Shown here: one piece after another, positions 5,001-31,166 of the stretch
Position numbering within the stretch: the stretch's first letter is position 1
How the letters are laid out: the number at the start of each line of letters is the position of its first letter
Assembly (NCBI GenBank): GCA_016840855.1
Contig: JAEORO010000157.1
Span: 1-33,292, forward strand
Reading direction: 5' to 3'
Length of the DNA stretch: 33,292 bases
Origin: Candidatus Thorarchaeota archaeon
GTDB lineage: Archaea > Asgardarchaeota > Thorarchaeia > Thorarchaeales > Thorarchaeaceae
Notes under the pieces: model-generated
What the model was told of the DNA's origin: nothing
The model's input: only the letters and a program-made list of their open reading frames with translations
Database searches by the model: none
Made by a program: the position numbers and the translations under genes

Positions 5001-8000
5001 CGGCAATTCCTGGTTTGATCTAACCGTATCACAAGCTGCAGTTGGAGTCTGGATTTATTTTGTTAATTCGAGTACAGAAACCAATTTCGGAATAACTGCA
5101 ATTGACACAAACAGCCAAAGCGTTGGAGTAGTCTGGGACCAAATTATAGTCCAGACAACGGTGGCTGATGACACTAGAGTCAATGTTGGTTCAAATGTTG
5201 AGATTCGAGTCACTCTTTGGCTAGCTTATGATGGCACATCTCTTGGGAGTGGCGATACTGTCACCCTTGCCGGACAAGCAATGACTTGGGATGCTGGTAA
5301 CTCATGGTTTGACTTGATTGTTTCCCAGGCGTCAGTGGGTCAATGGACTTACTTTGTTAACTCTAGTTCCGAAACAGCATTTGGAATCACTGCTTTAGAT
5401 ACGAACAGTCAGAATGTAGATGTCATCTGGGACCAGATTGTTGTGCAGACTACTGTTGCTGATGACACACGAGTCAATGTCGGGGACAATGTTGAGATTC
5501 GAGTCACCCTATGGTTGGCTTATGACAATACTTTCCTCGGGAGTGGCGATACCGTCACACTTGCAGGACAAGTGACGACTTGGGATGCTGTAAACTCCTG
5601 GTTTGACCTCAGTGTGTCACAGGCGTCAGTTGGTCTTTGGAATTATTTCGTCAATTCAAGTACTCAGACCGGCTTCGGAATCACAGCTCTCGATACAAAC
5701 AGTCAGAATGTTGACGTCATTTGGGACCAAATCGTTGTTCAAACAACCGTGGCTGATGACACCCGTGTAAATGTTGGTTCAAATGTTGAGATTCGAGTTA
5801 CCTTGTGGCTAGCATACGACAGCACATTTCTTGGGAGTGGCGATACCGTCGCACTTGCAGGACAAGCGATGACTTGGGATGCTGTAAACTCCTGGTTTGA
5901 CCTCACAGTATCGCAAGCATCAGTAGGACTCTGGAATTACTTCGTCAATTCAAGTACTCAGACCGGCTTCGGAATCACAGCTCTCGATACAAACAGTCAG
6001 AATGTTGATGTCATTTGGGACCAAATCGTTGTTCAAACAACCGTGGCTGATGACACCCGTGTAAATGTTGGGGGTAATGTAGAAATCCGAGTCACCCTTT
6101 GGTTAGCTCATGACAGTACTTTTCTCGGGAGTGGTGACACTATCACACTTGCTGGACAAGTGATGACTTGGGACTCTGTGAATTCTTGGTTTGACCTCAT
6201 AGTATCTCAGGCATCAGTAGGTCGTTGGAATTACTTCGTCAATTCAAGTGCGGAAACCACTTTTGGTATTTCATTGTTGGATCCCAACAGTCAGAGTGTT
6301 GGAGTAATCTGGGATCGGATTGTTGTTCAGACGACGGTAGTTGATGATAGTCGTATCAATGTTGGAGCTAATGCTGAGATTCGAGTCACCTTGTGGTTAG
6401 CTTATGATAGTACCTTCTTGGGAAGTGGTGACACTGTGACACTTGCAGGACAAGCCATGACTTGGGATGTTGGTAACTCATGGTTCGACTTATCAGTTTC
6501 ACAACTATCTGTTGGTCTATGGAACTATTTCGTCAACTCTAGCACTGACTCAACTTATGGTATCACACTCATTGATACAAACAGTCAGAGTGTCGGAGTA
6601 GTTTGGGACCAAATTATAGTCCAGACGACGGTGGCCGATGATACTAGGGTCAATGTTGGTTCAAATATTGAGATTCGAGTTACACTCTGGCTAGCGTACG
6701 ACAGCACATTTCTTGGGAGTGGCGATACCGTCGCACTTGCAGGACAAGCGATGACTTGGGATGCTGGTAATACTTGGTTTGACCTCACAGTATCGCAAGC
6801 ATCGGTAGGACTCTGGAATTACTTCGTCAATTCAAGTAGCGAAACAAGCTTCGGAATCACAGCTCTCGATACCAGTAGCCAAAGCGCAGGGGTTGTCTGG
6901 GATCAGATTGCTGTGCAGACCACCGTAGCTGATGATGCACGTGTGAATATAGGAGCCAATGTTGAAATTAGAGTTACTCTTTGGTTAGCTTACGACAATA
7001 CCTTCTTGGGAAGTGGTGATACCGTCACACTAGCAGGACAAGTAATGACTTGGGATTCAACCAATTCTTGGTTTGATCTCACAGTATCTCAGGCGTCAGT
7101 GGGAATTTGGAATTATTTCGCCAATTCCAGCTCAGAAGCAACTTTTGGCATCACTTTGCTAGATACTAATAGTCAGAGTGTCGGAGTAGTCTGGGACCAG
7201 ATTGTTGTACAGACTACCGGGACTGACGATACGCGAGTGGATATAGGAGCTAATGCTGAGATTCGAGTCACCTTGTGGTTAGCTTATGATAATACCTTTC
7301 TGGGAAGTGGTGACACTGTGACACTTGCAGGACAAATAATGACCTGGGATGCTGGCAACTCTTGGTTTGATTTAACAGTGTCACAGATGTCCGTTGGTCT
7401 TTGGAGCTATTATGTCAATACGAGTTCCGATGCAACATACGGAATCACTTTACTTGACACAAATAGTCAAAGCATAGATGTCATCTGGGACCAGATAGTC
7501 GTACAAACAACCACTGCTGATGACACACGAGTCAATGTTGGAAACAATGTAGAGATCCGAGTCACACTCTGGCTCGCCTATGACGGTGCTTTTCTCGGAT
7601 TGGGCGATTCTGTAAATGTTGCAGGACAGGCTATGACTTGGGATGTTGGTAACTCCTGGTTTGACCTCACTGTTAGCCAAGCTTCGGTAGGTTTGTGGAG
7701 TTATTTTGTCAATTCAACCTCTGAAACCACCTTTGGAATTACTGCCTTCAATATTAACAGTCAAGGTGTTGATGTTATCTGGGATCAGATTACTGTGCAA
7801 TCGACTGTAGCAATTGATAATCGTGTAAATGTAGGAAGTAATGTGGAAGTGCGTGTCACGCTCCAGCTTGCTTATGACAACGTATTCTTGGGAAGTGGCG
7901 ACACAATCACCCTTGACGGTCAGACTATGATCTGGGACTCTGTGAACTCTTGGTTCGACCTCGATGTGACACAAGCATCTGTGGGACATTGGAATTACTT

Positions 8001-11000
8001 CGTCAATTCCAGCGTAGAAGCCACATTTGGCATTTCATTGCTGGATACAAACAGTCAAAGTGTTGGAGTGGTTTGGGATCAGATTGTTGTGCAGACAACG
8101 GTTGCTGATGACATTAGAGTCAATGTTGGAGCTAATGCTGAGATTCGAGTCACCCTGTGGTTAGCTTATGATAATACCTTTCTGGGAAGTGGCGATACTG
8201 TCACACTTGCTGGACAAGCAATGACCTGGGATGCAGGTAACTCATGGTTTGATCTCACTGTATCTCAAGCATCAGTAAATCTATGGAATTACTATGTAAA
8301 TTCCAGCTCTGATTCAAATTATGGAATCACTCTATTGGATACAAATAGTCAAAGTGTAGGAGTAATCTGGGATCAGATTGTTGTCCAGTCAACTATCGCA
8401 GACGATACGCGAGTGGATATAGGAGCTAATGCTGAGATTCGAGTCACCTTGTGGTTAGCTTATGATAATACCTTCTTGGGAAGTGGCGATACCGTGACAC
8501 TTGCTGGACAAGCAATGACCTGGGATGCAGGTAACTCATGGTTTGATCTCACGGTATCTCAGGCATCAATAGGACTTTGGAATTATTTCGTTAATTCCAG
8601 CTCAGAAGCCACTTTTGGAATTTCATTGCTAGATACTAATAGTCAGAGTGTCGGAGTAGTCTGGGACCAGATTGTTATACAGACTACAGTTGCTGATGAT
8701 GCAAGAGTCGGTATTGGAGATAATGTTGAGATTCGAGTCACCCTCTGCCTTGCCTACGACAGTACATTTCTTGGGAGTGGCGATACCGTCACACTTGCTG
8801 GACAAGTGATGACCTGGGATGCAGGTAACTCATGGTTTGACCTCTCTGTTTCACAGTTGTCAATTGGTCTTTGGACATACTATGTCAATTCGAGTGCTCA
8901 AACAGGTTTCGGAATCACAACTCTCGATACAAACAGTCAGAGTGTTAATGTCATTTGGGATCAAATTGTAATCACTATAGGTGTGGATGATTCAACACCT
9001 CTCAATGGAATCCAAGTCAATTTTACTTTAGCAATCATGTTTGATTATGATAATATTGCATGCACAACCTACCAAATTGTGATTCAGAGAAACAGCACTT
9101 GGTGGCATTCATTTACTGAAAGTAACAAGTCACAGTTTATAGACACAAACTCTGATACCTCCTATACATACACTGTGATGATTGTTACATCAGAGTCAAC
9201 ATACAATGTACTCTCCTTCTCAACAAACAGTCAACAGGTTGTATGGTCAGCTGCACCCAACTCTGCACCAGTAAACGATTCTGCACCTGATCTAGCAAAT
9301 CCTGATGATACTGACAACTTGTATGCTCGCTATACTTACTATGTCATCACAAGTAGTGTATCTGATATTGATGGATACAACGACATCGAGTACATAGAAT
9401 TGACACTTTATGACAACTCCAGAGCCAGTCCTGTCTGGACAGTTAGATACACGGTATCAGGTAATATCTTCTCAGTTGAGTCAGGAAGTACCTATATCAC
9501 GCTGAGCGCTTCATCCTTTGCAGTTGGAGCTGGTAACAATTTAGATGTCACTTGGTACATCAAAATTGGATGGGATCATTCAGACCTGACAGATGTGGAC
9601 ATGAAGCAATATGTCTATGATGGAATTATTGGAGATGAGGACTTCTATGAGTCAAACTGGGATGTTGAAACCCGTCTAGAAATTACTGGTCTGACAATCG
9701 ACGATGGTTCAGGAACCTCAAATCGCGGTCCTCTCGATGGAGCTTTTACTGTTTCAGGAACACTCATTTTCCTAAACTCTGTTGACAACTATCCCCTTGG
9801 CAACGAAACTGATGTCTGGGTGTCTAGTTCAGAATATGGTACATCTACTGGCCCTTGGAGTGACCTTACACTCACTTCTGGGCAGTTTAGTTTGACTGTC
9901 TATGCTGATGATGAAGTTGGACAAGACACACTAACAATCAAAGCTGTTGTGGAGGGTGGTGGAAGTAGTGGAACTGATCTTCTTAACAGTACAGCACAAT
10001 CAACCTACATAGCTGATCGGATTGCTGTTCAATCATACGCAGCTCTCGACCCTCGAATAAACATCAATGATGCAGCTACAATTGATGTGGAACTCCTTTA
10101 CGAGTACGATTCTAGTCCAGTCATGAACGGATCAGTTACAATCAACGGAATTGCAGCAACACATCAAGGAAGTGGAACTTGGAGATTTTCTGACACAAAG
10201 TCTTCTGTACAATCGTTCACCTATAATGTCGTTGCTTATTCTGGTGGAATTCACGGACTTAACCAAGTCAACCAGAATGCCATGACTCAGGATGTCATCT
10301 GGGATCAAATAGTTGTTCAAACAACTGTTGCTAATGACACAAGGGTCGATGTAGGAGCCAATGTTGAGATTCGAGTCACACTATGGCTTGCTTATGATAG
10401 CTCATTCCTAGGCTCAGGCGACACAGTGACTCTAGCTGGATCTGCAATGACTTGGGATTTTGGTGAAGGACGATTCGAATTGATAGTTAGCCAAGCATCA
10501 GTTGGGTCTTGGACATACTTTGTGAACTCAAGCTCTGAGTCCACTTATGGCATAACATCACTGAATCTCTCTGGTAGTAATGTAAGTGTCATCTGGGACA
10601 GAATACAAGTCCAGTCATACTCAATGAGTGATGGTCGTGTTAATGTTGGCGAAAGTGTTGACATTGATGTGAATCTCTACTATGACTATGATGACTCTCC
10701 TGTTACTGATGGTACAATTACAGTGAATGGAGCAATAGCAACTCATCAAGGCACAGGTCTCTGGAGGTTCTCTGACTCTGAAGTTGTTGTCGTTATGAAC
10801 ACTTACAATCTCGTTGTATGTTCTGGCAACATATACGGTCTCACTGCTGTTGATCAAAATAGTCAATCTCTGAATGTGATTTGGGACCAGTTAGTTATCG
10901 TAATTGGCGTTGATGATCCATCTTCACTGAATGGTCATCAAGCGAACTTCACTCTATCAGTGACATTCGACTATGATGACTCAGTATGTACTACATACCA

Positions 11001-14000
11001 GATTGTGGTAGACAGGAATGCAACATGGTGGCACTCATTCACCACTGTCAATTTATCATCATTTGTTGATACTAGCACTAATACAACCTACCTCTACAAT
11101 GTCAGTCTTGTGTCAAGTGAATCTACCTACGGTATAACCGCTTTTAGCACAAACACTCTACAGGTCACCTGGTCTCTCGCACCTAATGAGGTTCCAGTGA
11201 ATGATTTTGGCCCAGTTCTTACGAACGCTGATGATACTGACTATCTATACGCTCGATATCGATACTATGTGATTACGACATCTGTGAGTGATCTTAATGG
11301 ATATGCGGATATTAGCTATGTTGAGTTAACACTCTACTCTGATGACCAGCTTACGCAATACTGGACTGTGCGATATACAGTTGGAACGGGCATCTTCTCA
11401 GTGGAGTCTGGTGGCACGAACATAGCCATCGGTTCAGTGTCTAACGCTGTTGGTGTTGGAGATACGCTGACCATTATCTGGTACATCAAGATCAACTGGG
11501 ACCATCCTGATGTCGTAGATTCAGATGTCAATCAGTATGTCACTGATGGGACTGCAAGTAATTCAGACTTCTATGAGAGTAACTGGAATGTCGAAACTCG
11601 TCTTGATTACTCTGTGTTTCCCGCATTGTCTGATGACCGTGGAGATATTAATACTGGAAACCTATTTGGGACTGGAGCGGTAACATACTATGGCTCTAGT
11701 ATAAGTCCTCGCTCCAATGAAACTGATGTCTGGATTGTTCATGATCTTGCGGGGACTTGGAGTGGAAACCTCCTAGCTGGTAGTTTCAACATCTCAAGCA
11801 TAAGCTCAGCAGCAACAGTCCGAATGAACACCTATACATTCAAGATTGTTGCCGAGGGTGTTGGCTCAGGTGGCACAGACCTCTACTATACAACAAGCCT
11901 TACAGACACTTTCGTCACTGATAGGATCGAGATTTATGAGGCTGGTGTAGTTGACGGTAGAATCAACATCAACTCTGACTGTGAGGTCTGGTGGAGAGCA
12001 AGGTATGAGTATAGCAGCACCGAGATACAGAGTGGGTTGGCAATTGAGCTCGTTGGATCAAAGATTCTTGTCTGGGATGCAGGTAATCTCTACTGGAGAT
12101 GGATAGAATCTTCAATCATTCCTGATTTGGTAGAATTTGAAGTTGCATCTGCAAGCGAGTCGACATATGGGCTTACTGCATGGTTCAATACAACTCCTGT
12201 ACAGCAAGTCATATGGGACTCTCTTGTCATAACAATAACTGACCCTATTGACCAGAGGATAAATGTTGGCGCAAACGCATCAGGTATTGTTGTGAGTGCA
12301 GTCTACGCCTTTGATGGTACTCCCTATGATGGGAGCTTCATTTTGAACAATACTAACTACCAATACGCAACCCCACAGATTCAGGGTTATACCGTTCTAA
12401 GTTGCTCTGGCGATACATATGACATTACAGCGATTGGAATCAATGATGAAACATATTGTATATGGGATAGAGTCTTTGTTGTTTCATTAGATGCTGATGA
12501 ACTCTATCACGACCCCAACGATGATGTGATTATAACAGTTGAGCTTCAGTATGAGTTTGATAGTTCCTCAGTTGAGGACGGTATGTTTTTGATTGCTGGT
12601 CATCCACTCACTCATATAGGCTTAGGCATCTGGGAGGCGCAAGTCACAATAGCTGACTATCAAACGATAAACTTTGACAGCTTCACAATGTGTAATGCTA
12701 CAGTTCATGGCATTAGTGCATACAACATGAACAGCAATGGAGTTGCAGTATATTGGGACCGTCTCGAATTCTATTCGGTATCAGTGGATGATGGTAGAAT
12801 CAATGTCGGATCTTCATCCAATATTCAATGGAGTGTACGATTAGAGAATGCTGGTGTTTCAATCACATCTGGTCTCACAGCAGAGATGACTGGTGGTATA
12901 ACTCTCACTCCATCAGCTGGTTTCTATACTGCTACCGTCACCGAGGGTGTGATTGGAAGTGTATCCTATGGTATTTTGACAGCGACAATAGGGGAGATAG
13001 ATCAATTCACACAAAGTGCATCTGATGCTGTTGTCATCTGGGATAGAGTATCAGTCGCATCCATTCAAGCATATCCTCTCTCCTTGGACGCTGCTACAGC
13101 AACAGAAATTCGAGTCACACTGGTCTATGAGTTCGACTCTACTGAAGTCACAGACGGTGAGGTCTATCTAAATGACAACGGTGCATCTGTAGCAATGTCC
13201 TACAATTCTGCTGGTGGTTACTGGAGTGCATCCATCACGAAAACTACTGCTGGAAACTACACCTTCATTGTTGGAACAGTTCTGGGCAATACTCACGGCA
13301 TCTCTTCTCTTAGCACAGGTGGTTTAAGTGTCGAGGTCGAATGGGTAGCTGTCCCAGGATTCACAATTGACCCCATGACACTGATGCTAATCGGTGGTGT
13401 TGGCATTGGAGTCATTGGTGCTGCAATTGTAGCGTCGCGTCGTGGAAAACGCGGAGATGCTGCCGCGGTTAGCGATGTCGAATTGGCTGATTTCGGTGTT
13501 CCGGAACCTGCTGAACCTACGATAGCAGCTGAGCCAGAAATTGTCGAATCCGAAGCTGAAGCAGTCTCTGAAGAAATAAAGGCCGAAGAAACTGAACTAA
13601 TTGAGCCAGAGGTGTCTGAAGTGCCTGAAATAGAAGCTGAATCAGTCGAGGAAGTGGTTGAGCTTGAAGAGGTTGAACTTCCTCCTGTCGATGAAGAGAT
13701 TGGAGCAGATATAGCCATAATTGAACCTGCAGCTGAAGTAGTTGAAGAAACTCCAGAAGCGGTTGAAATTGAACTTCCTGAAGCCAAAGATTTGGAAATT
13801 GAAGCTGAACCTTCTATTCCTGAAGAGCCTCTTACAGAAGTAGCACCAGAAATTGAAGAGTCAATAGACGAAGTAGAAGTCAAACCTGAGTTTCCGGAAT
13901 ATGAAAAAATCCCGGAGGAGTTCATCGAACCAGCACCTGAGGTAGATTTGACAAAACTGACAAAGAAAGAGCTCCTTGATTTGATTCCTGCAGATATTAG

Positions 14001-14088
14001 GGAATCCACATCACCCAACGAACTCAAACGACTAACAAAACAAGAACTGATCAGTCTCGTAGAATCTTTCAGAGATGTCGAGGAATAG
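2005..14088 (+). CDS. Giant secreted surface protein with Ig-like repeat array, C-terminal membrane anchor and acidic tail
   Basis: This gene encodes 4,027 residues without interruption. Residues 1-24 look like a signal peptide (basic MRK, then a hydrophobic run). Residues about 140-500 hold beta-sandwich-like domains, two of them a tandem pair. A large module beginning PxND occurs three times (from residues 499, 2422 and 3064). Between and after these modules lie about 26 beta-rich, Ig-like domains of 95-98 residues, nearly all ending in a WD(Q/R/E/S)(I/L/V) boundary motif; fifteen of them (853-2322) are near-identical tandem copies. One membrane helix lies at about 3790-3810, followed by basic SRRGKRG and a cytoplasmic tail of about 215 residues very rich in Glu, Pro, Ala and Val. 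The last 45 residues contain two related helix motifs, LTKKELLDLI and LTKQELISLV. It is presumably an S-layer-like or adhesion protein spanning the envelope; no enzyme motif is visible. The ATG at 2005 is supported by GGAGT eight bases upstream. Confidence 0.93.
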   Translation: MRKNVLVLAFVVSLFGIGLIIPNTNFDASQSFLNKPQLFTTSGIGDNNEDYVDQLSNLHLPSDIGTHDVFNDLLAHDTNYDSLTEANQGSAGNDVLDTVDSDVTDIDSNPDIGTQGTFVNVQDLGDADYMSVQEADVGFAGINENLDCNGYDGTYSAWTFAGASPYLDAVDYTTNYIYTSGDNNNVGYFTFPSTSLTSGSATVTLYVYCMSGDGNDLASVYYNVGAGDIDTGVDVCDQTNWQYDTVNLGTLTAAQINALSIRFTSVRSPPGSEIRIDYIYINVFAAAVPDYELEFEYQFTSVDFNEVNEEVCINIQSATQGTEELEVYEWDGVSSWALLGTLNSDGWNNFTASYITSVTYYIEIRDNERTDETTQSIWNIDSIILHLWTVPTLDYELDLEVGWTAADFDEANEELCIFPVTGGGWPSEDIIVDVWNGAWTTVFADLTPDQWNNVSISSYLTGSAFEIRFLGGTETGDTTQSTWEIDAVLIHTWTPSYIPANDQAPTLDNPSDTDNMYAQYQEYQVTVYVSDQNGYADIDYLEIGLWDNTRATEYCRFRYDEDTNTFTEEYDAGTYVTLNTGSSTATESGNDIDATFYFTIDWDFPDSTDLDANCSVIDTQTESVTTWYEVNWDVETRLDYSVFPSINDGSGTADRGDLDGSFSLTGTVIYYNSVDVYPSSTAVDVWVSSTEYGSTVGPWSDLTLTSGAFDVTCYADDAVGQDTYTIKVVEEGAGSGGIDLYYTTSYTDTYIADRVQVQLYSVVDDRIDVSTSVNVDFTLYYDYDNSPVLDGTVSLNLISATDLGSGVWRITDSETTATSNTYNIVSYSGGTHGISVVDQNGLSQQVIWDEIVVQTTVADDIRVNVGDNVEIRVTLWLAYDNTFLGSGDTVTLAGQAMTWDDGNSWFDLTVSQATVGIWSYFVNSSSETTYGISALDTNSQSVGVVWDQIVVQTTVADDTRVNVGNNVEIRATLWLAYDGTFLGSGDTVTLAGLAMTWDAGNSWFDLTVSQAAVGVWIYFVNSSTETNFGITAIDTNSQSVGVVWDQIIVQTTVADDTRVNVGSNVEIRVTLWLAYDGTSLGSGDTVTLAGQAMTWDAGNSWFDLIVSQASVGQWTYFVNSSSETAFGITALDTNSQNVDVIWDQIVVQTTVADDTRVNVGDNVEIRVTLWLAYDNTFLGSGDTVTLAGQVTTWDAVNSWFDLSVSQASVGLWNYFVNSSTQTGFGITALDTNSQNVDVIWDQIVVQTTVADDTRVNVGSNVEIRVTLWLAYDSTFLGSGDTVALAGQAMTWDAVNSWFDLTVSQASVGLWNYFVNSSTQTGFGITALDTNSQNVDVIWDQIVVQTTVADDTRVNVGGNVEIRVTLWLAHDSTFLGSGDTITLAGQVMTWDSVNSWFDLIVSQASVGRWNYFVNSSAETTFGISLLDPNSQSVGVIWDRIVVQTTVVDDSRINVGANAEIRVTLWLAYDSTFLGSGDTVTLAGQAMTWDVGNSWFDLSVSQLSVGLWNYFVNSSTDSTYGITLIDTNSQSVGVVWDQIIVQTTVADDTRVNVGSNIEIRVTLWLAYDSTFLGSGDTVALAGQAMTWDAGNTWFDLTVSQASVGLWNYFVNSSSETSFGITALDTSSQSAGVVWDQIAVQTTVADDARVNIGANVEIRVTLWLAYDNTFLGSGDTVTLAGQVMTWDSTNSWFDLTVSQASVGIWNYFANSSSEATFGITLLDTNSQSVGVVWDQIVVQTTGTDDTRVDIGANAEIRVTLWLAYDNTFLGSGDTVTLAGQIMTWDAGNSWFDLTVSQMSVGLWSYYVNTSSDATYGITLLDTNSQSIDVIWDQIVVQTTTADDTRVNVGNNVEIRVTLWLAYDGAFLGLGDSVNVAGQAMTWDVGNSWFDLTVSQASVGLWSYFVNSTSETTFGITAFNINSQGVDVIWDQITVQSTVAIDNRVNVGSNVEVRVTLQLAYDNVFLGSGDTITLDGQTMIWDSVNSWFDLDVTQASVGHWNYFVNSSVEATFGISLLDTNSQSVGVVWDQIVVQTTVADDIRVNVGANAEIRVTLWLAYDNTFLGSGDTVTLAGQAMTWDAGNSWFDLTVSQASVNLWNYYVNSSSDSNYGITLLDTNSQSVGVIWDQIVVQSTIADDTRVDIGANAEIRVTLWLAYDNTFLGSGDTVTLAGQAMTWDAGNSWFDLTVSQASIGLWNYFVNSSSEATFGISLLDTNSQSVGVVWDQIVIQTTVADDARVGIGDNVEIRVTLCLAYDSTFLGSGDTVTLAGQVMTWDAGNSWFDLSVSQLSIGLWTYYVNSSAQTGFGITTLDTNSQSVNVIWDQIVITIGVDDSTPLNGIQVNFTLAIMFDYDNIACTTYQIVIQRNSTWWHSFTESNKSQFIDTNSDTSYTYTVMIVTSESTYNVLSFSTNSQQVVWSAAPNSAPVNDSAPDLANPDDTDNLYARYTYYVITSSVSDIDGYNDIEYIELTLYDNSRASPVWTVRYTVSGNIFSVESGSTYITLSASSFAVGAGNNLDVTWYIKIGWDHSDLTDVDMKQYVYDGIIGDEDFYESNWDVETRLEITGLTIDDGSGTSNRGPLDGAFTVSGTLIFLNSVDNYPLGNETDVWVSSSEYGTSTGPWSDLTLTSGQFSLTVYADDEVGQDTLTIKAVVEGGGSSGTDLLNSTAQSTYIADRIAVQSYAALDPRININDAATIDVELLYEYDSSPVMNGSVTINGIAATHQGSGTWRFSDTKSSVQSFTYNVVAYSGGIHGLNQVNQNAMTQDVIWDQIVVQTTVANDTRVDVGANVEIRVTLWLAYDSSFLGSGDTVTLAGSAMTWDFGEGRFELIVSQASVGSWTYFVNSSSESTYGITSLNLSGSNVSVIWDRIQVQSYSMSDGRVNVGESVDIDVNLYYDYDDSPVTDGTITVNGAIATHQGTGLWRFSDSEVVVVMNTYNLVVCSGNIYGLTAVDQNSQSLNVIWDQLVIVIGVDDPSSLNGHQANFTLSVTFDYDDSVCTTYQIVVDRNATWWHSFTTVNLSSFVDTSTNTTYLYNVSLVSSESTYGITAFSTNTLQVTWSLAPNEVPVNDFGPVLTNADDTDYLYARYRYYVITTSVSDLNGYADISYVELTLYSDDQLTQYWTVRYTVGTGIFSVESGGTNIAIGSVSNAVGVGDTLTIIWYIKINWDHPDVVDSDVNQYVTDGTASNSDFYESNWNVETRLDYSVFPALSDDRGDINTGNLFGTGAVTYYGSSISPRSNETDVWIVHDLAGTWSGNLLAGSFNISSISSAATVRMNTYTFKIVAEGVGSGGTDLYYTTSLTDTFVTDRIEIYEAGVVDGRININSDCEVWWRARYEYSSTEIQSGLAIELVGSKILVWDAGNLYWRWIESSIIPDLVEFEVASASESTYGLTAWFNTTPVQQVIWDSLVITITDPIDQRINVGANASGIVVSAVYAFDGTPYDGSFILNNTNYQYATPQIQGYTVLSCSGDTYDITAIGINDETYCIWDRVFVVSLDADELYHDPNDDVIITVELQYEFDSSSVEDGMFLIAGHPLTHIGLGIWEAQVTIADYQTINFDSFTMCNATVHGISAYNMNSNGVAVYWDRLEFYSVSVDDGRINVGSSSNIQWSVRLENAGVSITSGLTAEMTGGITLTPSAGFYTATVTEGVIGSVSYGILTATIGEIDQFTQSASDAVVIWDRVSVASIQAYPLSLDAATATEIRVTLVYEFDSTEVTDGEVYLNDNGASVAMSYNSAGGYWSASITKTTAGNYTFIVGTVLGNTHGISSLSTGGLSVEVEWVAVPGFTIDPMTLMLIGGVGIGVIGAAIVASRRGKRGDAAAVSDVELADFGVPEPAEPTIAAEPEIVESEAEAVSEEIKAEETELIEPEVSEVPEIEAESVEEVVELEEVELPPVDEEIGADIAIIEPAAEVVEETPEAVEIELPEAKDLEIEAEPSIPEEPLTEVAPEIEESIDEVEVKPEFPEYEKIPEEFIEPAPEVDLTKLTKKELLDLIPADIRESTSPNELKRLTKQELISLVESFRDVEE
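2872..3489 (+). repeat. Tandem pair of about 104-residue beta-sandwich domains in the surface protein
   Basis: Two consecutive domains start with DYELEFEYQFT (2872) and DYELDLEVGWT (3184), 312 bases apart. Both contain a DF(N/D)E(V/A)NEE(V/L)CI segment, a WNN segment and a TTQS(I/T)W(N/E)IDxxxxHxWT ending. The pattern of strands and the terminal Trp suggest a jelly-roll of the kind found in carbohydrate- or protein-binding modules, but the binding partner cannot be read from sequence. Confidence 0.75.
3499..4272 (+). repeat. Large surface-protein module, copy A
   Basis: This is the first of three related modules of about 250 residues. It opens with PANDQAPTLDNPSDTDNMYA, continues through a YVSDxNGYADIDYLE segment and a W(D/N)VETRL(D/E) segment, and ends in TYIADR. 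Copies B and C share these landmarks in the same order. A is five residues longer than B. It introduces the first super-repeat, which contains the 15-copy tandem array. Confidence 0.85.
4561..8970 (+). repeat. Fifteen tandem copies of a 294-bp (98-residue) unit
   Basis: Units begin at 4561 and recur every 294 bases up to 8677, the last ending at 8970; I checked the VQ(T/S)T or IQTT opening of the copies and found no insertion or deletion between them. A consensus unit opens VQTTVADDTRVNVG, contains EIRVTLWLAYD, FLGSGDTVTLAGQ, TWDxxNSWFDL and YFVNSS, and closes SQSVGVVWDQI. All fifteen carry an N-x-S/T glycosylation sequon at unit position 71. Copies 11 and 12 (from 7501 and 7795) are the most divergent; copy 15 has Cys in place of the Trp of TLWLAYD. 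The units code for protein and have no spacers, so this is not a CRISPR array. Confidence 0.97.
9268..10026 (+). repeat. Large surface-protein module, copy B
   Basis: This second copy begins PVNDSAPDLANPDDTDNLYA and shares with copy A the WVSSxEYG(T/S)(S/T), GPWSDLTLTSG and ADDxVGQDT segments, so B and A are closer to each other than either is to copy C. It introduces the second, shorter super-repeat, in which only one copy of the 98-residue unit is present. Confidence 0.85.
10315..10608 (+). repeat. Dispersed single copy of the 98-residue unit
   Basis: One 294-base unit lies 1.3 kb downstream of the tandem array, flanked by more divergent Ig-like domains. It keeps the VQTTVANDTR opening, EIRVTLWLAYD, the NSS sequon and a VIWDRI ending. 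It has diverged in the middle (FGEGRFEL in place of the usual NSWFDL region) and near its end (LNLSGSNVS), suggesting an older, unexpanded state of the array in the second super-repeat. Confidence 0.93.
11194..11931 (+). repeat. Large surface-protein module, copy C
   Basis: This third copy begins PVNDFGPVLTNADDTDYLYA. The first half tracks copy B closely (YYVIT, NGYADI, a YIKINWDHPD segment), whereas the second half is more divergent and lacks the WVSSxEYG stretch. It leads into the five most divergent Ig-like domains before the membrane helix. Confidence 0.8.
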
Positions 14089-15775: not shown

Positions 15776-17563
15776 TTAGTTCTTTATAATGGCGATAATT
15801 CGATACATGTCACCCACTATTTGAATCGTGGCAGTGAAATTGTCACTGACATCGAGGTCGTTGAGCAGTGTGTACCAATCTGCAAGATTCATCCAGTCAC
15901 GTGCTCCCTCAATGAATGGGTACGTGACATTGTCAGTTCGTAACACAATATGAGTATCTCCATTATCAACATATGATGTCTTATTGACGACATTTGCTGT
16001 GAGGTTGAATGTCCCTGTAGGTTCAGGTTCTATAATACCTCCAAGAAGTTCCACATACGATGAACGGACTGAATATACAAGATCCTCTCCAGAAAGTGTT
16101 CCTCCAAGAGGTTTCCACACAAATCGGTCGATGTTTGAAGCATCTACCATCCCCAAAGCGTGAAGACGCATGTTTGTTGCGGTATATTCCTCGAGGTCTT
16201 CATCATAGTAGTAATCAGCCCAATAAATTGGACAATACCAAGTCCACTTTGTGAGGGTCGAATTAATCGCAACTGGATAAAGCAGGGGCATTGCTCCATA
16301 GTACATTCCACTAGCTGGGGCACCTATATCTGCAACTACATTTGCAGCAGCCGCGTCACCACTGACATAACCCTCGTTGCTAAGGTCATGATAATAGACT
16401 GCGTCCTTTGTTGCTCTGAACACACCAGCTAGTGTTCTAGTCGCTGTCACAGGATGCACTGCGATGAATGCTTCAATTCTATCAGTATCAGGGTTGATTA
16501 TATAGCGTGTGTCTTCATGTATTTCCAATCTGTCATTGGATGGAGGAATGAACCATAGAAGTCCACCTGCAAAGAGGTCGAATCCATCTCCGCGTCTATA
16601 TCCTCCCCATCTTGATATCTGGCGTTCAAGCCACTCTTCTCCATATGCTTGGGTGATCCAATCAGGAGTTTCTTCGATAGTATCATAGCTAAAAACAGAA
16701 CCGTTCTCTGCGTACACGATGGGGCCAATTGGTCTTTCAACAAAGTCGAATCCAAGTGGTGTTCTTGTCTGAACATAGACTAGCGCACCAGTGGGGTCCC
16801 AAGTCGGATACGCATACTGGTAACTCGCGGTCATATCATTGAGGTAGTTAGCAAACCGAATATCCTTATCCCAGAACAATCCCTCTCCAACAGGTATTGT
16901 TGTTTCTGAAATCAGATGCGGAGTCACTGATTGCGGATCATTCGCATCAACAACAATAAACCCTTTCACATAGTTCTCTGCTAGTACATTAGTTGATACT
17001 ATCGTACACACCCATACAAGCGTGCCATTTGGATTTGAGGTTATATGGGCAGCAGCAACATAGACATTAGATCCAAATGGCGAAATATGTTGAAGAGCTA
17101 CATATTTTGCATATTCCTCAGTAACCAATCTTACCTTGTCATCATCAATTGTATGATTGAAGAGAGGTTCATCAGTCATAATTATCATGCTATCAAAAAA
17201 CTCAGCATTTGTTACATCTGAAGTCCAACTGATGACCCCTGAGAAGATTGGCATAACAATCAGTATAATCAATCCAATACATGTAAGGGGCACTCTAATG
17301 CCTTCGAGTACTTGCTCAATATGTCTCCCACGAAATCCACTGGAAACAACTAGCAAAGCCGAGAAACTCATTATCAGGGCAATAATTGCCCAGGGAAGAG
17401 TGGAAACCAATAACAAGCATATGATGACCCATGCAACAGTCCCCCAAATAAGTCGAAATGGAAGCCATTTAATCAATTTACCAGGCCTCAGCATCTCATG
17501 ACTAAATGGGATTGGTATTGCATGAACTATTAGACTTATCAAAAGAAACACTAGTACATTCAT
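15776..17563 (-). CDS. Membrane protein with four helices and a large outer domain, unrecognised
   Basis: The 595-residue product has about four hydrophobic helices in its first 112 residues (roughly 1-20, 36-53, 55-73 and 88-112), then about 480 residues of mixed, aromatic-rich, beta-looking sequence with several N-x-S/T sequons, suggesting it lies outside the cell. I do not recognise the family. Segments such as GGLLWFIPPSNDR and a YYYDEDLEEY acidic patch do not match a catalytic motif I know. Upstream, GAGAGGTCA gives a good ribosome site for the ATG, and a TATA-like TTTAATCATAAAA lies in the 78-base gap, so it is probably transcribed on its own. It ends against the shared terminator with the acyl-CoA dehydrogenase gene. 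Confidence 0.85.
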   Translation of the reverse strand: MNVLVFLLISLIVHAIPIPFSHEMLRPGKLIKWLPFRLIWGTVAWVIICLLLVSTLPWAIIALIMSFSALLVVSSGFRGRHIEQVLEGIRVPLTCIGLIILIVMPIFSGVISWTSDVTNAEFFDSMIIMTDEPLFNHTIDDDKVRLVTEEYAKYVALQHISPFGSNVYVAAAHITSNPNGTLVWVCTIVSTNVLAENYVKGFIVVDANDPQSVTPHLISETTIPVGEGLFWDKDIRFANYLNDMTASYQYAYPTWDPTGALVYVQTRTPLGFDFVERPIGPIVYAENGSVFSYDTIEETPDWITQAYGEEWLERQISRWGGYRRGDGFDLFAGGLLWFIPPSNDRLEIHEDTRYIINPDTDRIEAFIAVHPVTATRTLAGVFRATKDAVYYHDLSNEGYVSGDAAAANVVADIGAPASGMYYGAMPLLYPVAINSTLTKWTWYCPIYWADYYYDEDLEEYTATNMRLHALGMVDASNIDRFVWKPLGGTLSGEDLVYSVRSSYVELLGGIIEPEPTGTFNLTANVVNKTSYVDNGDTHIVLRTDNVTYPFIEGARDWMNLADWYTLLNDLDVSDNFTATIQIVGDMYRIIAIIKN

Positions 17564-24608: not shown

Positions 24609-25850
24609 CTATTCAGGACGTATCACAGGATCTAGGAATAAGTAGGAGTCAGTGACTGGTTCTGTTGGCTTGACCTCTTTCATTAATAGGGCAACTATTG
24701 TGGCCAGGGTTGTTGTAACTACGAGGAAGAGGATTGATGCTGATAAACCATAGATATCTCCTATCCATCCGAAGATTATTGGCGATATTGCTCCTGGAAT
24801 AGATCCCACCGAGAAGAGAAGACCAAATGCTAAACCCCTTGATGCTCTTGGACTTACTTCAGTTTGATATGCAGTGTTTGCAGGGACTCCAAGATAGAAA
24901 AAGAATCCAATGACAATAAGCACCATGATAAGTGCCAATTCACTCAATGCATAATTCAATAGAAGCAAAGCTGGAGTTGCCAATCCAGTGGAAACAATAA
25001 GAAATGGCACACGTCGACCGATTCTATCTGAGAGTGGTGCTGCAACCATTTCTCCCACAAGTCCAGCACTGAGCATTATTGTAGTTAGGTAACCCGCCCA
25101 TATTGGATCTACAGGATAGGTTGCCACAAGGTAGACCGGCATGAGTAATGAAGTGCATCTGAATGCCATTCCTCTTAGACCCATTAGTGTAAGACTTAAC
25201 CAGTAGCCAATTGTCCATCCATCAGTTCCTTTAGTTTCGTCTTCTCTGTCCATAAACCCTCTTTCGTAACCAGATCTAGAATACATCATTAGAAAGACTA
25301 CTGGGAACAATATTGCAATGCCAATGATGCTTAATAAGATGAGAGAGGGTCTCCAGCCTCCTAACAAAACCAGCAAGGTTACTCCAAGAAATGGAATGAC
25401 CGCCATACCAACAAGTCCTCCCATTGCCTGTATTCCTGTGGCTTTTGCAAGAGTTCTCTGTGGAAATTTCTCTGCAAGAGCAGGAAATACACTTGGGTGA
25501 TAGCCAGAGGCACCCAAACCAAGGAATGCTTGAAAGACCGCAAGAATCAAAAAATCACTAGAGAAGCTCGTCAATAACATTGCAAGAGAGCTAAAAAGGA
25601 CACTCCCTGTGATAAAGCGATCTCGCCAACGCCAACCTCGATCCCCAAGATATCCAACCAGCAAATGCGAAGTGGTCATCGCAACCACTGCAGCGCTTGT
25701 AATAATTCCAATCTGAGTGTAGTTTAATGAAAGTTCAATCTGAATGAGTGGAAGAAAAGGCGAAAGTGCTCCGGTGTAAATATGGTTGAGAAAGTGTGTC
25801 AGTGTGCATGCTGCAAGAACCGCATAGGAGGCTTTTGTGATTCTAGACAA
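24609..25850 (-). CDS. Major facilitator superfamily transporter
   Basis: The 413-residue product has about twelve membrane helices in two halves. The motif between helices 2 and 3 is GYLGDRGWRWRDR, and the matching motif in the second half is APLSDRIGRR, which are MFS signatures. The charged loop around residues 195-215 separates the halves. The substrate cannot be read. The first in-frame ATG would remove the first helix, so translation probably begins at the TTG at 25850, with AGGAT just upstream at short spacing. Its own TATA-like sequence and the RNA-like element at 25937-26020 lie upstream. Confidence 0.9.
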   Translation of the reverse strand: MSRITKASYAVLAACTLTHFLNHIYTGALSPFLPLIQIELSLNYTQIGIITSAAVVAMTTSHLLVGYLGDRGWRWRDRFITGSVLFSSLAMLLTSFSSDFLILAVFQAFLGLGASGYHPSVFPALAEKFPQRTLAKATGIQAMGGLVGMAVIPFLGVTLLVLLGGWRPSLILLSIIGIAILFPVVFLMMYSRSGYERGFMDREDETKGTDGWTIGYWLSLTLMGLRGMAFRCTSLLMPVYLVATYPVDPIWAGYLTTIMLSAGLVGEMVAAPLSDRIGRRVPFLIVSTGLATPALLLLNYALSELALIMVLIVIGFFFYLGVPANTAYQTEVSPRASRGLAFGLLFSVGSIPGAISPIIFGWIGDIYGLSASILFLVVTTTLATIVALLMKEVKPTEPVTDSYLFLDPVIRPE

Positions 25851-26091: not shown

Positions 26092-28107
26092 TCAACCTAG
26101 CAATCCAGCTGTCCATAAAACAATCCGTAGTCCAATGAGTGCATCATCGCCTACTCCATATTCTCCTAGCAAAGCATAATTGTCGATGAAGAAGTTGGTT
26201 CCTGTTACTACGATTCTTCCTCCACTAGTATCTTCCCTACATCCCAAAACTGGTGCTGCTGGGTGGTAGCTGGCAAGCTGAGTCCCTCCTGGAGGAACAT
26301 GTATAGTAGCTCCATGATAATGGAATCCACTTAATCCAGAGGTGATTGGGTGTGAATCAAGATTTTCAATAAGTACTGGATCCTCTCCAGAGGGTACCTC
26401 AAGACCTGTGAGTTCAAATCCGGAAAAGCTCAGGAAATCATTGACTTGCGTGATATTTGTAAAACTAGCACCAAGGGTTGCTAAGAATATTCCTCCTCCA
26501 TTCCCATAATACTGCGAATAGGCAAGTTTCTCAGCAGCAGAGAATGGTAAAGAGTAAGCACTAGTTTCTGTCGGAATGGTTTCATTAGCATCATACACAC
26601 ATGGATCAAGTATGATGACTGAATCAAATTGTTGCAAGACTGAAAGTGTTGTTGCTGTGCTGTTTCGTATTTCAGTAACAGAAATATCGTTTGAAGTTAG
26701 CTCCTTGTAGAATTCCCTAAACTGACCATAGTAGGAATCAATTGACCACGAGGTGTGACTAATATCGAAAGCAACTCTTGCAATAGCTGATGACAACTCA
26801 AATGAAATCTCAAGACTTGTCGCTCCAAAATCTGTTGATGTGAACTGAATCGTATTGTTGAGCACCGATGGTCCTGATGAAGGCATGTGCGCAATAAGTG
26901 GGATAATTTTGCTCTGATTTACTTCGATAGTCGATGGGATATCGAAAATACTTGGGGAATCTCCAGTCACTGAAACTGTGAATGTTGTGCTACCTGATGT
27001 TAGTAATCTAACATTGAAATCGTAAGTGTCATCGTAAAATAGCTTCTCATAATCGATTGGTAGAGTAGCTGGAAAAGCTAAGCTCATAGCAGGTAGCTCG
27101 CCCTCTTGAGCAGCTGCAGCAAGTATCGTTTGAGAGTTTTGAACATTCAATTTCCCAGCTCCTACTACATAACTTGGATATTCAGTCATTGGATCTGCTC
27201 CTTTCATAAGAGCAGTCATTACTGACCCTGGACTATAGGTGATATTATTATCAATAGAATATCCAATGAGTTGCGCTGCTGCACCAGCAACACGAGGTGC
27301 TGCGAAGCTTGTTCCATAATATCTTGAAGTAGAGTCTGAAACCCATCCAAAAGCGCTGATATCTGGTTTCATGTATTTGTCGAATGTTGGGCCAGTCGAT
27401 GAGAATTCAGCGGGTGTATTGTCTTCATAGAGCGCTCCAACTGCAATACATTTTTCAAAAAGGCTAGGTGATGATATACTTGTACCAGCTAAACCGCTGT
27501 CTCCCTCATTACCTGCTGAGGAAACTACCACAACTCCTTTCGCGAAAGCCCATTCAACTGCTTGTTCTAGAGGGTCTCCCAAAACTGGACTTGAACCAAG
27601 ACTCATAGTGATAACGCTGCAATTCTGTTCAACTGCCCAGTATATTGCCGCTGTTAAACCAATAGGTGTTGCCACTCCATCAGTCCCTATCACTTTTCCA
27701 TTCACAATTTCTGCATTAGGTGTTTCAGCGACGAGGGTGGCAACAAGAGTGCCATGCGGAATATTCTCTGGTCGTGAGTCTGTGGTAGCTGTATCTATGA
27801 TATCATATCCATATTGAAGTTCAACGAAGCTTTTCTCCTCAACTACACGCCCTTGCAATGTGAAGCCAATGTCTATTCCCGAATCTAGGACTGCGACTCT
27901 GACTTTCGCGTTTGGACCATCACTAAATGGACCAATTCTGACAAGAAAGACCAATCCTGTTGATATAACGAGCATAAGGATAATGACAACTGCGATTATT
28001 CTTGTTCCACTAGATTTCTGCTTCCTAGGTGGTCCGTGCCAATAGTAATCGTCAATCATTTGTACCAGGCTCATATTGCTTTGCATGCGGCTTGTGAACC
28101 CTAACAT
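26092..28107 (-). CDS. Membrane-anchored subtilisin-like (S8) protease, site-1-protease-like architecture
   Basis: The 671-residue protein has a short basic cytoplasmic N-terminus, one membrane helix (about 36-57), and then a subtilase domain outside the cell. The catalytic triad is visible: D75 (AVLDSGID), H118 (HGTLVATL) and S267 (GTSFAAPRVAGA), with oxyanion N200 (SSAGNEG). The catalytic domain begins right after the helix, with no room for an I9-type propeptide. An Ig-like region (about 340-450) follows, and then a C-terminal domain of about 220 residues beginning VAFDISHTSW and containing GGGIFLATLG and GGRIVVTGTNFF. That region resembles, from memory, the glutamine-amidotransferase-like part of eukaryotic site-1 protease. 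It may process surface proteins. The ATG at 28107 lacks a clear ribosome site; an ATG at residue 8 or 12 is possible. Confidence 0.9.
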   Translation of the reverse strand: MLGFTSRMQSNMSLVQMIDDYYWHGPPRKQKSSGTRIIAVVIILMLVISTGLVFLVRIGPFSDGPNAKVRVAVLDSGIDIGFTLQGRVVEEKSFVELQYGYDIIDTATTDSRPENIPHGTLVATLVAETPNAEIVNGKVIGTDGVATPIGLTAAIYWAVEQNCSVITMSLGSSPVLGDPLEQAVEWAFAKGVVVVSSAGNEGDSGLAGTSISSPSLFEKCIAVGALYEDNTPAEFSSTGPTFDKYMKPDISAFGWVSDSTSRYYGTSFAAPRVAGAAAQLIGYSIDNNITYSPGSVMTALMKGADPMTEYPSYVVGAGKLNVQNSQTILAAAAQEGELPAMSLAFPATLPIDYEKLFYDDTYDFNVRLLTSGSTTFTVSVTGDSPSIFDIPSTIEVNQSKIIPLIAHMPSSGPSVLNNTIQFTSTDFGATSLEISFELSSAIARVAFDISHTSWSIDSYYGQFREFYKELTSNDISVTEIRNSTATTLSVLQQFDSVIILDPCVYDANETIPTETSAYSLPFSAAEKLAYSQYYGNGGGIFLATLGASFTNITQVNDFLSFSGFELTGLEVPSGEDPVLIENLDSHPITSGLSGFHYHGATIHVPPGGTQLASYHPAAPVLGCREDTSGGRIVVTGTNFFIDNYALLGEYGVGDDALIGLRIVLWTAGLLG

Positions 28108-28256: not shown

Positions 28257-31166
28257 TTGTCGAATGAAGACGCCATCACATCCGAGAACGATTCTACTCA
28301 TGCTTATCATGCATTACCTCTTGAGGAAGTCTTCGAAACTCTACGGGCTGACCCTGAAAACGGATTACCAGATGACGAAGTAAGATTAAGGATTCAAAAA
28401 TTCGGACAAAATGCTATACCAAAGATTCGTGGACCATTCTGGCAGGTGTATATTGCCCCGATTATGAACTGGCTAATCACAATTTACATTCTCAGCTCAA
28501 TAGGACTCATCATAATTGCGCAGTTGCTTCCTCCAGGTGAGAATGAGATGGGGCAAGCTTTAGTGTGGCTTGGGATTGTTGCAATTAATGCCCTGGTAGC
28601 AATCTTTCAACAATATAGAGCGCAGAAAAAGCTGGAGGCTTTAGAGAAACTCTCCGCTGGAGAAGCCCGCGTTATCCGTCAAGGTTCTGAAAAGAGTGTT
28701 CCTCCATTTGAAATAGTTCCTGGTGACATCATTAAACTCGACCAAGGGGATCGAATTCCTGCTGACGCTAGATTAATCACTTCATCTAATCTCACTACAA
28801 ATGAAGCCTCTCTGACAGGTGAGAGTGTCCCAGTAGTAAAGGATGAACAAGCGATTGTTGCTCGCGACGTTCCACTCACCGATATGAGAAACATGGTCTT
28901 TTTTGGTACATATATAGCAACAGGAATGGCTACGGTTGTAACCACTGCAACTGGAGGTCACACTGAAATCGGAAAGATTCAGGGAACTCTTGAAGCGCTA
29001 AATACAGGTGATATCCCTCTAAGACGAAAAGTCAACCTTCTGGCAAAATATCTTGGAATTGCAGCATTAATTCTCATGAGTGTATCTGTGCTATGGCAAG
29101 TCTTTGTCTTTGATTGGCTCAATGGGCAACCAATCAACCTCGGGTATGAACATGTATTAGGACAGACGCAGGAAGCAATCACTCGCGCGATGACTATTAT
29201 GCCCATCAATATACCTCTACTAACAACAATTGTTCTATTGACTGGTGTTCTAGCCATGGCAAAGAAAGGTGTCATTATCAGAGACCTATCAGCTGTAGAG
29301 AGTCTTGGTAGAGTTAGTGTCATCTGTAGTGATAAGACTGGAACAATGACTCGCAATCAGATGACAGTCAAGTATTGTTGGGATACGCACAACCTTTACA
29401 CCGTTAAAGGAGATGGATACGACCCCATTGGTGGTATCTATCTTCTAGAGGGAGCTGACGATATAATTACCCTCGAGGTCAAGGAACAAGAGGTTCGAGA
29501 TGTATTCAAATGGAAGGGCCTTTTCCGTCTTGTCGTCTGTGGTGGCATCAATAATGACTCTGAAATAGTTAGAGAAATAATTCCTGATCAAGGTGAAATT
29601 TGGAAACCATTAGGAGACCCCACAGATGCTGCTTTACTTACGTTGTTTCGCAAGAGTGGACTTGATGAAGAAGCAATATCAAAGAAATACGAGATTATTC
29701 AAGAGTTTCCATTTGAATCTGAGCTCAAGCGAATGACCAAAATTTGTAAGGATGGCAAAAAGTTCGTAGCTTTCACCAAAGGCGCAACGGAAGTTCTCTT
29801 ACCTAAATGCACAATGGTGGATGGAAAAGATTCGCCCACGAAAATTACTTCTGATATTGTGAATAAAGTCCGGACATTCACTACCGACTTTGCGTCTAAG
29901 GGTTATCGTGTCATCTCACTCGCATATCGACAACTCGACAAAGTCCCAACGGGTAACGATGCCCGCGATGAAGCTGAGAATAATCTAATCTATCTTGGAT
30001 TCGCTTGTATCGTTGATCCTCCTAGAGATGGTGTGAAGGAAGCTGTGTCTGCTTGTCATAGTGCAGGAATTAATGTGATTATGATTACTGGCGATGCCGC
30101 TGCAACTGCTAAGACAATTGCTGAAGACTTGGGCATCTTCAAAGTAAATTCACTTGTTGTTGAAGGTAGCGACATAGCTGATGTTTCTGATGACGACTTT
30201 GCCCGAACGAACGTTTTCGCCAGAGTTGACCCTGACCACAAACAAATCATTGTAGAACGGTATCAGGATCAACAACGTGTTGTGGCTATGACTGGGGATG
30301 GAGTCAATGACGCCTTAGCACTAGCCATGAGTGATGCCGGTATTGCTATGGGTATTACTGGTACAGATGTGGCCAAGGAAGCTGCGGACCTAGTTATAAC
30401 GGATGATAGTTTTGCTTCAATTGTATCCGGTGTGCATCAAGGTAGAGGTCTCTTCAACAAGATACGTATGATGATTTACTTCTATGTGGCCATCAATCTC
30501 TTTGAAAGCATTATCTTCTTTGGAGCCCTGTTCTTTCTTCCTGATCTTAGTTTCCTAGAAACTTGGCAGAGCATCTATCTCGTAGTTACAACCCACTCAT
30601 TCCCAGGTCTGGCACTTGTCTTTGATAGAACATCGCCACATGCTATGGAAGACAAACCTCGTGACAGCCAAGCACTCATCACACGTAACCTTGGAAAGTT
30701 CATGGCACTAAATGTCATTTTGATGACTATTGGAGCTGCATCAGTCTTTATGCTCACATTGACTGGCTGGGGCAGTATTGTTGATGTCTATGTTGAGAAC
30801 AACTTGGGTTTCTATGGTACAATTGATGCTCCATATAAGGCAAATGTTATGCTTTTGTCAGTAATACTTCTAGTTGAAAGTACCATAGTCCTCAGTATTC
30901 GTCGTATCAATATGCCATTGCACAAAAGTATTCGAGAACCGGGAACGTGGGTTTTTGTGGTCTTGCTGGGACTAATCTATATTGCACACTTTCTCCTCAT
31001 GTATGTGCCATTGGCACAAGAGATTCTATCTGTCTACAGTCTGCATTTCTATTTTGCACCATTAACAAGCTATGACTGGCTAATCGTGGTTCTTGGAGCT
31101 CTTCCAGCAATCATTGGCCTCGAGTTGTATAAGTGGCGTTTTAGGAACCATGATGTTGATCTATAG
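28257..31166 (+). CDS. P2-type-like cation-transporting P-type ATPase with unusual ion-site residues
   Basis: The 969-residue pump has the complete catalytic core: an N-terminal cation-ATPase domain, LTGES (E189) in the actuator domain, the phosphorylated D359 in SDKTGTMTRNQ, MITGD, and the magnesium-binding TGDGVND (D681, D685). About ten membrane helices are predicted. The core resembles Ca2+/Na+ pumps, but the helix-4 motif is PINIP (316-320) instead of PEGLP, and helix 6 reads TTHSFPG (H780) where Ca2+ pumps have VTDGLPA. Helix 5 keeps N747 and E750. The ion carried is therefore uncertain. Translation starts at a TTG with GAGAGGT seven bases upstream; a TATA-like TTTATCTA lies at 28208-28215. 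It is divergent from the protease gene. Confidence 0.9.
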   Translation: MSNEDAITSENDSTHAYHALPLEEVFETLRADPENGLPDDEVRLRIQKFGQNAIPKIRGPFWQVYIAPIMNWLITIYILSSIGLIIIAQLLPPGENEMGQALVWLGIVAINALVAIFQQYRAQKKLEALEKLSAGEARVIRQGSEKSVPPFEIVPGDIIKLDQGDRIPADARLITSSNLTTNEASLTGESVPVVKDEQAIVARDVPLTDMRNMVFFGTYIATGMATVVTTATGGHTEIGKIQGTLEALNTGDIPLRRKVNLLAKYLGIAALILMSVSVLWQVFVFDWLNGQPINLGYEHVLGQTQEAITRAMTIMPINIPLLTTIVLLTGVLAMAKKGVIIRDLSAVESLGRVSVICSDKTGTMTRNQMTVKYCWDTHNLYTVKGDGYDPIGGIYLLEGADDIITLEVKEQEVRDVFKWKGLFRLVVCGGINNDSEIVREIIPDQGEIWKPLGDPTDAALLTLFRKSGLDEEAISKKYEIIQEFPFESELKRMTKICKDGKKFVAFTKGATEVLLPKCTMVDGKDSPTKITSDIVNKVRTFTTDFASKGYRVISLAYRQLDKVPTGNDARDEAENNLIYLGFACIVDPPRDGVKEAVSACHSAGINVIMITGDAAATAKTIAEDLGIFKVNSLVVEGSDIADVSDDDFARTNVFARVDPDHKQIIVERYQDQQRVVAMTGDGVNDALALAMSDAGIAMGITGTDVAKEAADLVITDDSFASIVSGVHQGRGLFNKIRMMIYFYVAINLFESIIFFGALFFLPDLSFLETWQSIYLVVTTHSFPGLALVFDRTSPHAMEDKPRDSQALITRNLGKFMALNVILMTIGAASVFMLTLTGWGSIVDVYVENNLGFYGTIDAPYKANVMLLSVILLVESTIVLSIRRINMPLHKSIREPGTWVFVVLLGLIYIAHFLLMYVPLAQEILSVYSLHFYFAPLTSYDWLIVVLGALPAIIGLELYKWRFRNHDVDL

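Follow-up and report, generated by a model that had tools for sequence, protein, structure and literature searches.

The window, a 33,292-nucleotide stretch of Thorarchaeal DNA, encodes a membrane-anchored protease in which a subtilisin (S8) domain, a beta-sandwich and a GIFT domain follow one another in the order found in human site-1 protease (S1P), the enzyme that opens eukaryotic regulated membrane-proteolysis pathways such as SREBP activation. The likeness to S1P is real and is stronger in the predicted structure than the sequence suggests. However, S1P has closer archaeal relatives than the window protein, which belongs to a Thorarchaeal offshoot of a large Asgard family, with an inverted topology and no prodomain. 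Type I proteins of Asgard archaea, including one encoded in the window genome, are better archaeal counterparts of S1P. The original prediction, which had read the gene as an archaeal relative of S1P informative about its origin, is partly supported.

The open reading frame is intact over its 671 codons, and the features recognized in and around it are collected in Table 1. Pfam S8 (PF00082) matched residues 68 to 304 with an E value of 1.7e-36 (126 bits; the cut-off is 21.8), and D75, H118, N200 and S267 were aligned with D218, H249, N338 and S414 of S1P, whose catalytic roles are described in PMC11231238. The D-H-S triad and the oxyanion Asn, together with the above-cut-off match, place the protein among the S8 peptidases. 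These four residues are intact and invariant in all nine aligned proteins of family A, the group of the window gene (see below), so that the enzyme would be expected to be active. The catalytic domain starts about 10 residues past a single hydrophobic helix (about residues 34 to 58), without a prodomain, and the helix itself is preceded by a basic flank and a conserved YW; the reading of the gene as an anchored subtilase is borne out. The protein ends with the GIFT domain, and a C-terminal transmembrane (TM) helix is absent. Translation probably begins at M12, which corresponds to the start of the frame in the closest named relative. The YW (residues 22 and 23), predicted to be cytosolic, was invariant across the nine family A proteins.

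Table 1. Features of the protease gene and its conserved neighbors (window coordinates)
Feature	Position	Strand	Basis
MFS transporter, conserved downstream neighbor, context only	24609..25850	-	Pfam; 17/18 loci
Membrane-anchored S8 - beta-sandwich - GIFT protease (family A), 671 aa	26092..28107	-	Intact frame, Pfam S8
GIFT (class I GATase-like) domain, residues 443-671	26095..26781	-	Profile and fold match
Beta-sandwich, about residues 342-439, in the position of the S1P P-like subdomain	26791..27084	-	AlphaFold2 secondary structure, structural alignment
S8 (subtilisin) catalytic domain, about residues 68-332	27112..27906	-	Pfam, alignment to S1P
N-terminal TM anchor, one hydrophobic helix, about residues 37-57	27937..27999	-	Secondary structure of model, hydropathy
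Short N-terminal tail, residues 1-36, predicted cytosolic	28000..28107	-	Topology inferred from charge
P-type cation ATPase, conserved divergent neighbor, context only	28257..31166	+	Pfam; 17/18 loci

In the AlphaFold2 model of the window protein (mean pLDDT of 75.4 and pTM of 0.72), residues 342 to 439 form a series of long strands and residues 443 to 671 a domain of mixed alpha/beta structure. With this model, a Foldseek search of 350,542 PDB chains retrieved human S1P as the best match by a wide margin (9CSD, E of 1.2e-31; 8UW8, 1.3e-29), followed by Vpr (6.3e-20) and by subtilisins from about 1e-17. In VIA-align, model residues 61 to 671 were superimposed on residues 204 to 875 of 8UW8 (Z of 33.8 and rmsd of 3.7 over 540 residues, 22% identity), while the best single-domain subtilisin reached a Z of 28.0 over 234 residues. 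In PMC11231238, the body of S1P is described as an S8 domain, a P-like sandwich (479 to 616) and a GIFT subdomain (617 to 998), and since the modeled ectodomain matches S1P over all three, their order and packing are the same in the model. The superposition proposed in the original prediction thus gave a collinear ectodomain, with an identity of 22% (120 of 538 aligned residues).

At the sequence level the case of the C-terminal domain is different. The segments that had been quoted as recalling S1P are all there, VAFDISHT (445 to 452), QFREFYKEL (462 to 470), GGGIF (537 to 541), LSFSGFEL (559 to 566) and PVLG...GGRIVVTGTN (619 to 638), and they are not a product of chance, as they are conserved across 29 Thorarchaeal orthologues and paralogues, in which A446, F447, H451, G461, Q462, Y467, D495, G537, N556, G636, N638, D642, N643 and W665 were invariant. 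A profile of this domain from families A and B (A2) comprised 29 rows; of the 38 references listed, duplicates from the same genomes were omitted, as were L024 and L035, a distant row. Its list was topped by a repeat-driven match to a C-type lectin (E of 0.0021), no stretch of which passes alone, and the best meaningful match was the GIFT domain of IFT52 (5fms; E of 0.005). S1P was absent from the matches of this profile up to an E value of 10, and the Pfam model MBTPS1_4th (PF23090) matched none of the 29 family A and B members up to the same value. Single members matched ThuA (14 of 29), IFT52_GIFT (4 of 29, best 8.2e-5), DUF4350 and ABC_transp_aux (4 of 29 each) and OST48_N (3 of 29), all of which we take to be GATase-like families. 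The domain can be assigned to the GIFT, or class I GATase-like, superfamily by the match of the profile to IFT52, the individual IFT52_GIFT matches and a fold collinear with the GIFT subdomain of S1P. The profile search suggested earlier confirmed GIFT kinship and did not retrieve S1P itself, which indicates that the sequence likeness of this domain to S1P is at the superfamily level and that the quoted motifs are, as judged from these profiles, general GIFT-domain features. The cysteine of the LDPC motif (residues 500 to 503), located after a GIFT strand, showed almost no variation within families A and B, and other residues occupy this position in type I proteins.

Nine named contigs carried relatives with the same architecture; eight of them have Thorarchaeota in the title and one Lokiarchaeota, which bears out the assumption of an Asgard genome. 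When 39 genomes were searched with the protein, 25 matched at an E value of 1e-30 or better, all in the window's own family f1 except for one type I protein in genome G038 (listed as L035 and again as L056, described below). Two paralogous groups could be distinguished, A, to which the window gene belongs, and B, which shares about 37% identity and is also present in the window genome, both forming well-supported clades in the three-domain tree (100/98 and 100/100). The gap between S8 and GIFT was 106 to 111 residues in both groups, and no TM helix followed the GIFT domain in any of their 16 rows. The contig titled Lokiarchaeota (L011, WJMJ01000108.1) is probably misnamed, because its protease pairs with a Thorarchaeal f1 sequence (100/100) and has the same gene neighbors. 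Elsewhere in the window, a frame of 4,027 aa (2005 to 14088, plus strand), located between a thiolase gene and genes for a ChsH2-like protein and an acyl-CoA dehydrogenase, had no Pfam match at an E value of 0.01, and a frame of 595 aa (15776 to 17563, minus strand) had no Pfam or NCBIfam match at 0.1.

The type I layout (signal segment, pro-region, S8, sandwich, GIFT and C-terminal TM) was found in many Asgard families, and the window genome itself encodes one such protein (L051, 993 aa). Topology was predicted from Kyte-Doolittle hydropathy for 33 type I rows corresponding to 32 genes (L084 and L164 represent a single gene, also counted as two rows in the trees). All 33 had a hydrophobic N-terminal segment and 31 a predicted TM after the GIFT domain, the remaining two being L063, with a frame that extends to the edge of its stretch, and L052, in which a TAG interrupts the frame. 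A pro-region of about 60 to 150 residues was present in most rows (none in L097), and the S8-GIFT gap was 106 to 133 residues in all but L059 (533), compared to 141 in S1P. By identity, the row closest to S1P was L060 (29%). A full-length profile of 24 Asgard rows matched S1P across all three domains (E of 9.9e-95, rank 3), with Tk-SP as its best match. The same two proteins were found with the model of L056, a compact type I form of 807 residues (pLDDT of 82.8 and pTM of 0.82): Foldseek placed S1P at the top (4.0e-42) followed by Tk-SP (7.5e-39), and VIA-align placed Tk-SP first (Z of 51.6 over 386 residues), with S1P not among its best 50 rows. Among plasmids, the C-terminal region of L056 had no match and the full protein no record with 80% coverage; plasmids sample prokaryotes poorly, and these negatives carry little weight. 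We infer from the models that the type I body resembles a protease of the Tk-SP kind, beta domain included, followed by a GIFT domain and a TM helix. L051 lies in a cluster of several S8 genes (with L105 to L109) at about 96.8 to 120.1 kb of contig C257 of genome G000. Two type I proteins, L053 (family f6) and L060 (family f3), end in a zinc ribbon past the C-terminal TM (Zn_Ribbon_1, 1.7e-7 and 9.5e-6), a module that, lying behind the predicted helix, would be cytosolic and possibly linked to the outer protease.

The S8 tree comprised 78 rows, including 10 bacterial or haloarchaeal plasmid outgroups and omitting duplicate rows, some of family A, and S8 matches of under 230 or over 420 residues; eukaryotes were represented by one sequence only in both trees. 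S1P appeared weakly among Asgard sequences (67/90, 87/83 and 91/84), apart from the 10 outgroups, and a single clade of S1P with A and B was not rejected (p of 0.229). As S1P fell in no starred set, this tree was dropped as evidence of its origin. The three-domain tree (50 rows) put S1P on the side of the 27 type I rows (99/96), its place within that side unresolved and its branch 2.38 long, and its position as sister of the A and B clade was rejected (AU p of 0.0146). Neither tree places S1P firmly.

These results bear on the possibility that the window protein is an archaeal S1P orthologue, partnering M50 site-2-type proteases in two-step regulated intramembrane proteolysis, which we consider highly improbable. 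The fold match would fit such a role and the window genome has two M50 homologues, but M50 proteins were found in every one of the 14 control genomes, so that their presence says little, and co-occurrence was dropped as evidence. The three-domain tree rejects the required grouping, even if the S8-only tree does not, the anchor is at the opposite end, the prodomain is missing, and MBTPS1_4th finds no member of either family.

To place these domains in a wider frame, 148 Asgard and 14 control genomes were surveyed with the GIFT models of eukaryotic proteins. MBTPS1_4th gave 25 matches at an E value of 0.01, in 24 Asgard genomes, six of them with a match above the curated cut-off, and it matched none of the 14 controls. 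An S8 domain was present in 20 of the 25 frames, all of which were examined (of the five without it, L197 and L198 are cut by the end of the stretch). IFT52_GIFT matched in 145 of the 148 Asgard genomes, 140 of them above the curated cut-off, and in 2 of the 14 controls, none above it. Only one of its best 21 frames, among which L186 and L187 are cut by the end of the stretch, contained S8, the other 20 being mostly free-standing proteins of about 320 to 515 residues with an N-terminal GIFT domain. The difference (20/25 versus 1/21) suggests that each eukaryotic model picks the Asgard subfamily of like architecture. GIFT-like domains were found in 147 of the 148 Asgard genomes. The C-terminal part of five IFT52-like proteins (L177, L181, L183, L192 and L193) is charged and mostly coiled-coil-like, a layout resembling that of IFT52; we found no literature joining IFT52 with Asgard archaea, and these proteins may be relevant to how intraflagellar transport arose.

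A profile of 18 Asgard S8-linked GIFT domains, including the query families (A3), matched IFT52 (1.5e-19) better than S1P (5.6e-11), a ranking that, by sequence, speaks against a tight link to S1P. It would be expected if an S8 domain with a sandwich, as in Tk-SP, had been joined to GIFT separately in Asgard archaea and eukaryotes, and so would the position of Tk-SP as best match both of the full-length profile and, over pro-region, S8 and sandwich, of L056 in VIA-align, as well as the unplaced S1P in both trees. We regard such a convergent assembly as unlikely, given that MBTPS1_4th finds S8-fused GIFT domains and IFT52_GIFT free-standing ones in the same 148 genomes, and that type I proteins share with S1P the order of domains, a similar spacing and the C-terminal anchor. 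Our tentative alternative, which we hold somewhat short of an even chance, is that S1P derives from an Asgard type I S8-sandwich-GIFT protease that the archaeal ancestor already had, with the Asgard proteins making the first, extracytosolic cut in regulated membrane proteolysis and families A and B being N-anchored forms controlled by GIFT only. No archaeal or Asgard origin of S1P was found in the literature searched (by title and abstract, for MBTPS1 and archaea), nor any report joining site-1 protease with Asgard archaea or with GATase. Asgard archaea are the closest group to eukaryotes. A widespread Asgard family with the three-domain body of S1P and, among its type I members, the topology of S1P makes such an origin testable by phylogeny and biochemistry.

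As for function, we consider it probable that the window protein is an active, extracytosolic, membrane-tethered serine endoprotease with an ectodomain of the S1P kind, a Thorarchaeal offshoot of the Asgard type I family, and that its activity would depend on GIFT. This reading builds directly on the domain order, the catalytic residues, the fold match, the distribution of the family and the predicted topology. It has to be weighed against an ordinary surface subtilase used for peptide nutrition, with GIFT as a generic binding domain or spacer and a likeness to S1P at the superfamily level only. Some features would agree with a nutritional enzyme, as the S8 domain resembles ordinary subtilisins by sequence, almost every Asgard genome has GIFT-like domains and sediment archaea are described as protein degraders in titles and abstracts of the literature. 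We find it possible but rather doubtful, since family A is kept as a single copy in a fixed neighborhood (17 of 18 loci), its anchor is permanent and the full-length match to S1P is far above those to single-domain subtilisins.

Under the preferred reading, that of a GIFT-dependent tethered protease, the offshoot formed by families A and B would have lost the signal segment, the pro-region and the C-terminal TM, or swapped them for an uncleaved N-terminal anchor. The sandwich would be packed on S8 and GIFT on both. The enzyme would be tethered at the outer face and might cut adjacent membrane or surface proteins at limited sites, either shedding or processing them. According to PMC11231238, the prodomain of S1P is inhibitory, and GIFT packs on the S8 loops 338 to 348 and 372 to 384, which support N338, and so settles the loops that carry the oxyanion residue. 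The matching loops of the window protein (about residues 200 to 213, and from 237) fall in segments with pLDDT below 50 (200 to 215 and 235 to 246), as if unsettled in the model, although this may be a mere effect of the shallow alignment (nine rows). With no prodomain and these loops among the least certain of the model, GIFT docking seems a likely control point, and activity might depend on it, perhaps under the control of a partner, in place of a prodomain. The neighboring cation ATPase could be relevant to calcium supply, although this is a guess. The Asgard proteins offer simple versions for the study of control by GIFT.

Among known systems, the GIFT domain of IFT52 (5FMS and 5FMR) has the same C-terminal fold as the window protein but is free-standing, with no protease. 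Tk-SP of Thermococcus kodakarensis (3AFG) has S8 followed by a beta domain and is the top VIA-align match of L056, over a range that ends at residue 547, and the matched chain has neither GIFT nor a membrane anchor. Human S1P (MBTPS1/SKI-1; 8UW8 and 9CSD) shares with the window protein the three domains in the same order and arrangement, the catalytic residues and the attachment to a membrane. However, S1P is a type I protein with a signal peptide, A and B prodomains and a C-terminal TM, none of which were found in the window protein, anchored by its N terminus. The Asgard type I proteins (L056, L165 and L060, and L051 of the window genome) have the three domains and the spacing of the window protein and differ from it in a signal segment, usually a pro-region, and a C-terminal TM with a tail.
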